Assembly: GCA_016744575.1 (NCBI GenBank)
Contig: JADGEC010000023.1
Span: forward strand, 1-35,636
DNA from: Sulfurimonadaceae bacterium
Lineage (GTDB): Bacteria > Campylobacterota > Campylobacteria > Campylobacterales > Sulfurimonadaceae
DNA: 35,636 bases
Direction: 5' to 3'
Shown here: positions 17,215 to 24,786 of the stretch, piece by piece
How positions within the stretch are numbered: the stretch's first letter is position 1
Layout: each line of letters opens with the position of its first letter
Translations under genes and position numbers: made by a program
Notes under the pieces: model-generated
What the model was told of the DNA's origin: nothing
The model's input: the letters and a program-made list of their open reading frames with translations, nothing else
Databases searched by the model: none

Positions 17215-17889
17215 ATGTTAAGACTTTTGTTAATAATCACTGTTTCGATCTCCATCTGGGCTGACACGCCAAAACTATATTCGAGTCTGGGTGATCTGAT
17301 ATATGATAATATGGAGAGCATCTCCCGACTTGCTGATATCAAGGTGATGTCTAAGCATGATGAATCCATAGCGAGATATATTGGTAACTGTAAGATGGCG
17401 CATAAGCATGGTCTTGCTTTGAATATTGATGATCCAGATGCAAAAGCAGTCAAGAACTATCTTGAGGAGTTGCGGGCTTTGGATAAAGAGAGAATAGCAT
17501 TTATTCAAATATCTGATAGACTGCTCTCAAAGTCGATAGAAGAAGATGACTTGGAGAGTTATAGTGAACTGATAAAGAGTGGAGTGACAGATATAGAGAG
17601 AGATAGTGATAGGATCATAGATTACTACCTGCGTTATCGTAATGAGAACTATCTAGTAGAGGTGGAAGAGCTGATGTTATATAAGGATGAACTAAAAGAT
17701 CGTGAGGATCAGGAAGAGGTAGATCGTCAGTCTCTTTATAAGCGTTACCATCAAGGCCGTATCGATCAGATACATAAGCGGCAGCTGGAGAAGAAAGCGG
17801 CGATGAGAATAGCGATAGATGCTGAACGTGAGAGTGCCAAACGTGAGTTAAATAGAGAACTGGACGAGGAGTTACTCTCTACTCAGTAG
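17215..17889 (+). CDS. Exported helical protein of unknown function, paralogue of the gene at 21033
   Basis: I do not recognise a named family. The 224-residue product starts with a hydrophobic signal sequence (residues 1-16, MLRLLLIITVSISIWA). The rest is almost entirely charged and probably helical, with a Lys/Arg/Glu-rich coiled-coil-like tail from about residue 150. Residues 18-140 align without large gaps to the N-terminal part of the glutaredoxin-domain protein at 21033: PKLYSSLG versus PRLFSRLG, then LEELRALDKE versus LRELQKKHDK. This copy lacks the glutaredoxin domain and has one cysteine. Its 3' end overlaps the convergent bpt gene by 18 nt. A GGAG ribosome site precedes the ATG. Periplasmic location is inferred. 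Confidence 0.75.
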   Translation: MLRLLLIITVSISIWADTPKLYSSLGDLIYDNMESISRLADIKVMSKHDESIARYIGNCKMAHKHGLALNIDDPDAKAVKNYLEELRALDKERIAFIQISDRLLSKSIEEDDLESYSELIKSGVTDIERDSDRIIDYYLRYRNENYLVEVEELMLYKDELKDREDQEEVDRQSLYKRYHQGRIDQIHKRQLEKKAAMRIAIDAERESAKRELNRELDEELLSTQ

Positions 17890-21023: not shown

Positions 21024-21032
21024 AGGGCTTTG

Positions 21033-21782
21033 ATGTTTAGATCACTATTTACGTTATTACTTGCTGTCGTCTTTCTCGGTGCAGCAGAACACCCTCGTCT
21101 CTTCTCCCGACTGGGAACACCCCTGTATGAAGCTGATAAGGCATTTTTGAAGATCGCAAAAGAGGTATCGCTTCAGACAGAGATAGAAGCTTATCATCAA
21201 TACTCAGAGAAGAGTCGATCGGCAGGTCTGGAGATAGAGAGTTCTGAGCTGCCCGAGATCGATGCGATAGAGGCTTATCACAGCTCTCTTAGGGAGCTTC
21301 AAAAAAAACATGATAAGGTCATCGCTTCACTGCAGACAAGATTGCTTCAGGCCATGGATGGTGGGGACTATACTACTTTTCTACTGATGGTAGAGAGCCG
21401 TCTGGACCCTCTTTTTGAAGATGAGATCATGAAAGAACGTAGTGTGCTCTTTTATAGGGAGCATGCCTCATCGCAAGAGAACAGCTATATGCAAAAGATG
21501 GAGGCTGCTCTTCATGAGATGCAGGAGACCCCTGAGAAGAGTAGCATAGCGGCTGACACCTTAGTACTGCTGACAGCATCATGGTGCCGGGCCTGTAAGC
21601 GGGCGAAAGCTTATTTGAATGCGAACCATATTGCTTTTACGGAGTACGATATTGAGACGAGTGGCAAAGGCATGCAGTTATATAAAAAGTATAAGGGTCA
21701 TGCTATCCCGATGATGATAATCGGTGATGAGCACCATACCGGATTTGATCCTGCCTGGATCAAGGAGCGATCGGCTCACTGA
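21033..21782 (+). CDS. Exported protein with C-terminal glutaredoxin-like domain
   Basis: This is a 249-residue protein with a signal sequence (residues 1-18, ending LGAA) and a helical N-terminal domain (about 20-145) homologous to the protein at 17215. The C-terminal glutaredoxin/thioredoxin fold is at about 175-245. The redox motif is C185-R-A-C188 in TASWCRACKRAK, and the cis-proline is P226 in AIPMMIIG. The fold and the export signal suggest a periplasmic thiol-disulfide role, but the partner is unknown. I chose ATG 21033 over the TTG at 21030 because the ribosome site AAAGGG (21022-21027) overlaps the panC stop. The 3' end overlaps the convergent ftsI by 7 nt. Confidence 0.85.
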   Translation: MFRSLFTLLLAVVFLGAAEHPRLFSRLGTPLYEADKAFLKIAKEVSLQTEIEAYHQYSEKSRSAGLEIESSELPEIDAIEAYHSSLRELQKKHDKVIASLQTRLLQAMDGGDYTTFLLMVESRLDPLFEDEIMKERSVLFYREHASSQENSYMQKMEAALHEMQETPEKSSIAADTLVLLTASWCRACKRAKAYLNANHIAFTEYDIETSGKGMQLYKKYKGHAIPMMIIGDEHHTGFDPAWIKERSAH

Positions 21783-23563: not shown

Positions 23564-23598
23564 AGTCTCTTTACGTAGATAACAAAATATTGTTGCTA

Positions 23599-23604
23599 AT
23601 AATA
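23599..23604 (-). promoter_or_regulatory. Outward -10-like box at left end of the element, toward ftsI
   Basis: On the minus strand the element edge reads TATTAT, 36 nt before the ftsI ATG. That gives a plausible leader with the AAAGAG ribosome site. No clear -35 is seen. A matching box, TATAAT (23863-23868), points outward at the other end. Confidence 0.35.
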
Positions 23605-23865
23605 CCAATCCTCATTAAGGGGTGCTACTTTAAACGACCATAGTGTGTTAGAGTGTGAGGCAGGAGTCGGCAGGAGCTACTGGTAGCTTCAAGGACTTCT
23701 AACGAAGCAATATGACACACTATGGTCGCCCTTCGGGTAAAAGATAAGCCATCATCTACTTCGTTAGGCCTTATTGGATTAACCAGTTAGTCCTGCAAAG
23801 ACCTGCCTTGTAGCTAATAGCTTATCTCTTAATTTAAAGCAGTACTCCTTAACGGGGGTTGGTAT
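23602..23865. mobile_element. MITE-like palindromic element with terminal inverted repeats
   Basis: The left end (ATACCAATCCTCATTAAGG...) and the reverse complement of the right end (ATACCAACCCCCGTTAAGG...) match over about 33 bp with seven differences. AATA occurs directly outside both ends (23598-23601 and 23866-23869), a possible 4-bp target duplication. Inside, CGACCATAGTGTGT (23635-23648) is perfectly complementary to ACACACTATGGTCG (23715-23728), CTAACGAAG pairs with CTTCGTTAG, and AGATAAGC pairs with GCTTATCT. It has no ORF of note and no transposase, so it would be non-autonomous. A structured non-coding RNA is the alternative. It fills most of the 392-nt spacer between ftsI and the next gene. 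Confidence 0.65.
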
Positions 23866-23930
23866 AATACCTTCTGTTGATTGTCAGAAGTGTAACGCTT
23901 ATTGCATTAGAGGGTGGTAAATGGTATAGT
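23863..23930 (+). promoter_or_regulatory. Candidate -10 boxes upstream of the exported-protein gene
   Basis: TATAAT spans the right edge of the palindromic element (23863-23868). A second -10-like box, TATAGT, lies at 23925-23930, about 26 nt before the ATG at 23956. Either could drive the downstream gene. The closer one gives the shorter, more usual leader. Confidence 0.4.
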
Positions 23931-23955: not shown

Positions 23956-24786
23956 ATGAAGCGATCACTGCAGCTCTTCTTACTCTTGGTAACGGTCACG
24001 CTTTTTGCTGTCGAACTCGAGCGCGGTCATACCTATAGTGGACCGTTGAAACTGACGGCAAAGTCACTGGGTGTCGGACTGGGATTACCAAATGGATGGC
24101 ATGCAGAACTACCTACAGGTGGAGGGATGCGATTGAGCAGGGAAGACAGTGCAATACGTATGGATATCCATGCACAGGAGTTCGAACCTCATGATGCTAT
24201 AAAGTACCTCTCCCTGCCGGTTCAGTTTCGGTCGACACTGATGCTTTTCCCTGAAAAACGTATTGTACGACTCTCTACGACAAAGTATCGTAGAAGTTAC
24301 AATGTGCAGGGAGGCAAAGAGAGTGCACTGCTCTATATCGTGTTGGGACCGCAGGGACGGGCTGCAGTCTTGACCGGTGTGGCTCCTCCAGAAGAGTTGA
24401 CGGCGATGCGAAATAGTATGCTCTCTATCGCTAATACGATCACTTTCACGCAGATAAAACCTCCGGCTGAGATGGCTGGTACCCTTAGAAAAAAGATAGC
24501 TGGAGGACACTACATCTATTATGAGACTCTCGATGGACATAATGAAAAAAGAGAGATCTGGCTTTGCAGTGAAGGAAAGTTTGTCTTAAAAGAAGCACGG
24601 GCTATCGCTTCAAACACATCGACGATATCGATGACATATCAGGGAATATGGCATGTCAAGAAAGAGGAATTGATACTTCAGTTTGTCGATGGATCGCAAA
24701 AGAGCATGACACTGCATCAGGTGGACAACGTGCTCTTCTTTGGCGAACAGCGTACATACCCTATGAGAAATGGGGTGTGCCGATAG
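23956..24786 (+). CDS. Exported protein of unknown function
   Basis: I do not recognise a named family. The 276-residue product has a signal sequence (about residues 1-18, LFLLLVTVTLFA) and then a globular part that looks beta-rich. A first half (to about residue 165) contains GLPNGWHAELPTGGGMRL and NSMLSIANTITF. A second half contains REIWLCSEGKFVLKEA, SMTYQGIWHVKKEELILQFVDG and FFGEQRTYPM, reminiscent of small lipocalin-like stress domains, though this is only an impression. There are two cysteines (WLCSEG and the C-terminal NGVCR). It stands alone on the plus strand, between ftsI and fliE on the minus strand, next to a MITE-like element, which suggests insertion into an older cluster. Confidence 0.75.
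   Translation: MKRSLQLFLLLVTVTLFAVELERGHTYSGPLKLTAKSLGVGLGLPNGWHAELPTGGGMRLSREDSAIRMDIHAQEFEPHDAIKYLSLPVQFRSTLMLFPEKRIVRLSTTKYRRSYNVQGGKESALLYIVLGPQGRAAVLTGVAPPEELTAMRNSMLSIANTITFTQIKPPAEMAGTLRKKIAGGHYIYYETLDGHNEKREIWLCSEGKFVLKEARAIASNTSTISMTYQGIWHVKKEELILQFVDGSQKSMTLHQVDNVLFFGEQRTYPMRNGVCR

Follow-up and report, generated by a model that had tools for sequence, protein, structure and literature searches.

The block at positions 23603 to 23864 of the window, which is the whole stretch of 35,636 nucleotides from a Sulfurimonadaceae bacterium that we analysed, is a well-supported MITE-type insertion between two genes in one lineage of sulfur-oxidising Campylobacterota. We consider it probable that this element belongs to an order-wide MITE family of the Campylobacterales that is moved in trans, and that the two hairpin arms in its interior are selected as folded single strands, most probably as RNA. 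The initial annotation had suggested 'a non-autonomous mobile element or a large folded RNA', and we found support for both halves of this proposal.

Boundaries and genomic setting of the element

The element and its ends were located as follows.

23603..23864, no strand: whole MITE-type element, 262 bp, TACC...GGTA (own-genome copies, relatives, empty site in the same-genus genome G001)
23600..23602, no strand: TAA, left copy of the 3-bp target duplication (direct repeat with 23865-23867)
23865..23867, no strand: TAA, right copy of the 3-bp target duplication (direct repeat with 23600-23602)
23603..23634, + strand: left terminal inverted repeat (sequence comparison)
23833..23864, - strand: right terminal inverted repeat (sequence comparison)

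Imperfect terminal inverted repeats of about 33 bp had been claimed before and they are real: the 36-nt inverted arms (23599-23634 and 23833-23868) are 81% complementary, and the terminal repeats measure about 33-36 bp. Comparison with relatives placed the boundary one base further in on each side than the originally proposed 23602-23865. The tetranucleotide AATA, which had been named as a possible target duplication, is indeed present on both flanks of 23602-23865, but the family comparison favours a 3-bp TAA duplication that overlaps it. Coding capacity is absent, as had been stated, and the ORF list of the window contains no ORF of at least 80 aa confined to the block. Folding of the 272-nt strand yielded -116 kcal/mol versus a mean of -69 for shuffled sequences (z -9.7; 0 of 200 shuffles).

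The element sits between divergent genes, upstream of a penicillin-binding-protein gene. The latter lies on its left and is read leftwards (PF00905 and PF03717 in the profile search), and the right neighbour, which starts at 23956 and is read rightwards, is without a Pfam match. One gene further right, flagellar genes and then division-type genes follow, as assigned by reading the translations, and thus the cell-division/flagellar setting had been described correctly. Elsewhere in the window, the predicted proteins of 17215-17889 and 21030-21782 have similar N-terminal regions, and the latter ends in a glutaredoxin domain.

Two putative promoter motifs, both read from the sequence only, face outwards from the ends.

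23860..23868, + strand: TGGTATAAT, extended -10-like motif facing the gene at 23956
23599..23607, - strand: TGGTATTAT, weaker -10-like motif at the left end, facing the penicillin-binding-protein gene

The first of them is made of the right element end plus its TAA target duplication and resembles TGGTATAGT at 23922-23930. A two-hexamer promoter scan did not flag it, and an outward -10-like function of TGGTATAAT toward the gene at 23956 is given here as a suggestion.

Copies, empty sites and target duplications

Dispersed copies and empty alleles, which the initial annotation had named as evidence for a MITE, were both found. In the genome of origin, a draft assembly of 228 contigs on which these counts rest, there is one copy with 85% identity, one with 80%, one partial copy with 77% and several end fragments, and the end pattern occurs at 23 sites versus 2 for the reversed control. 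Matches in relatives were obtained in 11 of the 60 genomes searched, and near-identical copies (98%) occur within one genome. When 228 genomes of the family were searched for the empty site, G001 gave a continuous match with 90% identity across both joined flanks, and thus the orthologous site of this same-genus genome lacks the element. About 13 nt beside the element are also absent there; this extra 13-nt gap in the right flank of the element counts against our best explanation. The initial annotation had listed a single copy, a conserved position and covariation as the pattern that would speak for a conserved RNA rather than an insertion. Only the covariation was observed, which is strong in the interior, and the element is mobile.

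Empty sites were also found for relatives: L335 carries a single TTA at the site of L112, L333 a single TAA at that of L107, and both L332 and L336 a single TA at that of L061. For L102 (AGTACC type) the empty site in L331 is ambiguous by one base. In the TACC end type, equal TWA triplets flank 9 distinct elements or remnants and unequal ones flank 3; a further row, which repeats L085, is not counted. Two elements of this type have empty alleles with a single target copy. Elements of the GGGC type have 4-base AT-rich duplications (TTAA, ATAA, TAAA) in three of the four copies listed, and further copies read by eye gave TTTA and ATAT. The AGTGCC type carries TA on both sides and, since TA is its own complement, the duplication is demonstrated in this type only by the empty site.

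Several sites deserve separate mention. The elements L102 (Sulfurimonas indica) and L109 (a metagenome genome) are 96.6% identical and occupy exactly the same site upstream of a NadD-like gene, with flanks only 74-83% identical; G030, with flanks 96% identical to those of S. indica, lacks the element there. Independent insertion at the one site and retention under selection with losses would explain this equally well. L085 and L115, which have different end types, lie in what is apparently the same intergenic region of two genomes, and with about 45 elements this may be compatible with chance. End-only palindromes of about 30-62 bp (L202, L208, L296, L297, L300) are located between genes, some with intact target duplications, and represent either internal deletions or a minimal mobile form.

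Architecture of the interior

Between the terminal repeats there are two homologous hairpin domains in opposite orientation.

23638..23725, + strand: arm A, hairpin domain of P1, AAGGC/AACGnAG internal loop, P2, GCA/AA loop and P3 (R1, 85.6 bits)
23728..23738, no strand: central motif GCCCTTCGGGT between the arms (CCCNNNGGG, with CC/GG in some relatives; recurrence in relatives)
23741..23828, - strand: arm B, homologous hairpin domain in opposite orientation (R1, 65.9 bits, E 2e-14)

R1 is a covariance model built from the arm alignment, and arm B was outside its training set. The layout of terminal repeats, arm A, CCCNNNGGG centre, arm B and terminal repeats extends over about 262-275 bp, and the central motif, whose middle bases vary, separates the paired arms of 49 elements. 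All three internal inverted repeats that had been reported are visible in the sequence, namely the 14-bp pair CGACCATAGTGTGT/ACACACTATGGTCG, the 9-bp pair CTAACGAAG/CTTCGTTAG and the 8-bp pair AGATAAGC/GCTTATCT. However, the 9-bp pair is not a separate helix: an AACGnAG loop is common to the two arms, which face opposite ways, and this produces the pair. An attC-like recombination site, to which this pair had pointed, was rejected for the same reason.

The arm motif GCAGGAGCTACNNGTAGCTTCAAG retrieved 92 stretches from GTDB genomes, with records from Sulfurimonas, Helicobacteraceae, Sulfurimonadaceae, Campylobacterales, Campylobacteraceae, Arcobacter and Nitratifractor. The arm model matched 52 of 299 genomes of Campylobacterales and, in a phylum-wide draw, all of the matches listed fell into this order. 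In phages, plasmids and viral contigs the element was absent. Besides two-arm bodies there are single-arm and end-only versions. L312 is a 160-bp version with one arm within 40-bp ends, and 14 arm matches were reported for its host genome G420, a hint that a single arm may suffice for spreading. In L002, L003 and L029, which come from the genus of the window, arm B has an extra hairpin of about 32 nt (GCACCCCAGGAGCACTTTGTCGCTTCGCTTGGGCGC) beside the apical loop.

Evidence for selection on the folded arms

To characterize the arms, we aligned 27 arm sequences of one fixed length. Compensatory changes, that is changes on both sides, were seen in 21 of the 34 arm pairs, and 92% of the cells were paired. 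The covariation amounted to 0.570 versus 0.213 in shuffles (0 of 500), and slid versions reached at most 0.152. Seven P3 pairs are invariant because the search motif was used to collect the set, and these pairs count for nothing in the covariation. Among 37 arms without the search motif, the stems vary and hardly any change is seen at the loop bases A-G-G-C, A-A and A-A-C-G.

The wobble pairs distinguish the two strands, since G-U read on the opposite strand is A-C and an excess of one over the other singles out one strand. In the P1 and P2 stems of 71 non-redundant arms we counted 175 G-U pairs versus 7 A-C mismatches; these counts pool arms of related elements, so that their p values overstate independence and are indicative only. 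The end stems of 44 non-redundant elements served as built-in control and gave 29 G-U versus 21 A-C. In the set that had been picked by a plain pattern, with no use of the model, the counts were 86 G-U versus 14 A-C. The orientation of the arms was fixed by the loops and is independent of the wobble pairs, and in both arms, which lie on opposite strands, it is the arm's own forward strand that is favoured. At one P3 position G-U is kept in 53 of the 71 arms, with the search motif fixing it in 34 of these. Because of the covariation and the G-U excess in the arms and the near-equal counts in the ends, the arms look to be selected as single strands and the ends do not, and the most likely form of these strands is RNA. 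Wobble pairs make up almost 10% of P1, and their frequency in P1 and P2 favours RNA over DNA without proving it; G-T pairs in single-stranded DNA could yield the same asymmetry.

End types and candidate transposases

The same body of about 262-275 bp recurs within ends of about ten kinds, and the target duplications that go with them measure 2, 3 or 4 bp. These ends include TACCAAYCC, TACCATCGG, GGGCACCTC, TTGAGACCTC, AAGTGCCTG, AAGTACCTA, AAGTAAGAG, TATTGCCATCC and others. The median identity of the cores was 79% within an end type and 66% between types; L079 and L110, which have different end types, share 88% of the core versus 64% of the end. Single pairs of this kind need care, since simple patterns were used to define the end classes and at least L129 was put in the wrong one. 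Close cores with different ends suggest a quicker turnover in the ends than in the core.

The initial annotation had proposed to search for a transposase gene with the same ends. For the TACC ends of the element itself, no such transposase was found when the end pattern was searched in 151 genomes and the loci of three DDE families were examined, but two sibling end types match IS5-family insertion sequences. In these insertion sequences the ends read GGGCACCTCTAAAAAC and GAACCCTCTGAACAAA, and the duplications of 4 bp are TTAA and AATT. At the PF01609 loci, insertion sequences with GGGCAYCTCTAAAAAC ends were found in G152 and G076 and those with GAACCCTCTGAACAA ends in G175 and G130, in each case matching relatives of the element, and the duplication is present on both sides in G152 (TTAA) and G175 (AATT). 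The transposases that they encode exceed the cut-off of the IS5-family model NF033581 (NCBIfam), and the copy in G152 is interrupted by a stop codon. The similarity between the ends of these insertion sequences and those of the relatives ceases after about 16 bases, and the covariance model detected no arms in them. Searches with PF01609, PF13586 and PF13359 gave no match in the element's own genome. For the window copy itself, an IS5 derivation is not supported: none of these three families had a match in its genome, and among the loci examined there was no TACC-ended insertion sequence.

Gene context

Using simple longest-ORF gene calls, we found 22 of 45 elements between divergent genes; among 110 background gaps, 27 were of this kind (p 0.004). 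Where the neighbouring genes are in tandem, arm A points along them in 16 cases and against them in 5 (p 0.027). The upstream bias could result solely from the choice of AT-rich targets of 2-4 bp. Half of the elements, this one included, lie between divergent genes, where transcription across the element is not guaranteed.

Proposed mechanism and alternative explanations

In the scenario that we favour, the element inserted into the divergent intergenic region upstream of the penicillin-binding-protein gene, duplicating TAA. Because of its ends and target duplications, it would most likely be mobilised by a DDE transposase that acts on the ends in trans, and the likely enzymes for the two sibling end types (GGGC, GAACCC) would be IS5-family transposases. 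In transcripts crossing the element, the arms would fold as RNA hairpins and, with one arm per orientation, a transcript in either direction would carry one correctly folded arm. The arms might serve as a 5'-leader structure that is bound or processed by a host factor, so that insertions upstream of genes would be less costly. Turnover would be faster in the end repeats than in the arms. Both the RNA function and the independence of orientation are predicted from the sequence comparisons. We put forward more tentatively the wider proposal that mobile elements of Campylobacterales carry, with the arms and in both orientations, a new class of structured RNA or of functional single-stranded nucleic acid. 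The arms would then be what is conserved and functional in the element, and the ends would be exchanged so that different transposases move the same core.

An ordinary MITE would have a functionless self-complementary interior, and its conserved arms would reflect recent descent from few source copies. All of its mobility features are present, the nearest elements are often 86-98% identical, so that part of the family is young, and the many truncated and end-only remnants look like decay after insertion. However, cores across end types have a median identity of 66% and yet keep a fixed geometry, invariant loops and compensatory changes; neutral decay predicts equal numbers of G-U and A-C, as in the end stems and not as in the arms (175 versus 7), and the end-matching IS5 elements contain no arms. 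We therefore regard this explanation as unlikely.

Selection might also act on the arms as single-stranded DNA hairpins, for instance for a hairpin-recognising enzyme or in replication, comparable in principle to REPIN or attC. Two homologous inverted hairpins resemble the REPIN layout, and the wobble asymmetry demands a single strand but not specifically RNA. Ends with 2-4 bp duplications, on the other hand, fit cut-and-paste of double-stranded DNA, and the conserved P3 G-U and the wobble share of P1 suit RNA better, which leaves the DNA variant quite unlikely. A vertically inherited, immobile regulatory RNA of the penicillin-binding-protein gene would agree with the strong fold, the covariation and the location upstream of a conserved gene. 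It is contradicted by the orthologous same-genus site without the element and by the further copies, which in the same genome lie at other positions and in relatives adjoin many different genes, and we consider it highly improbable. A MITE with arms selected as folded single strands, probably RNA, remains our preferred reading.

Comparison with known systems

Bacterial MITEs, which include NEMIS/Correia, ERIC, RUP and Nezha, are 70-300 bp long, non-coding, intergenic and mobilised in trans (PMC3733652). The element has in common with them the size range, the lack of coding capacity, the inverted ends, target duplication, dispersal, intergenic site and strong secondary structure. In contrast to them, what is conserved in its interior is a pair of homologous hairpin domains in inverted arrangement, and the ends differ between its relatives, with duplications of different length. 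With IS5-family insertion sequences (NCBIfam NF033581, transpos_IS5_4), the GGGC- and GAACCC-type relatives have about 16 terminal bases in common, as well as the 4-bp duplication. These insertion sequences encode a transposase of 326-343 aa and hold no arm, and none was found with TACC ends.

REP/REPIN elements are GTAG-tagged palindromes moved by tyrosine transposases (PMC3733652). In both REPINs and the element, two inverted hairpin units form one mobile unit; however, the arms of the element measure about 88 nt, have conserved internal loops and lie inside 30-bp ends. Identity with REPINs, short GTAG/CGTC-tagged palindromes without direct duplication, was rejected in view of the ends of about 30 bp and the direct target duplication.

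Compensatory changes and conserved loops, by which structured RNAs are recognised, are both present in the arms, and in their covarying stems and conserved loops the arms are like Rfam families. Unlike these families, they have no gathering-score match: no Rfam family reached this score in the window element or six relatives, and the known RNA families matched only far below their curated scores. A small literature search, with subscription journals outside its scope, found no published description of the element.

The usual view of MITEs is that of truncated transposons whose ends alone matter. Here the conservation is reversed, since the interior hairpins are kept and the end sequences and the length of the duplication vary. 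If confirmed, the element would be a parasitic DNA element selected through folded RNA, and thus a directly testable case, and its arms would form a new structured family across an order of environmentally important bacteria.
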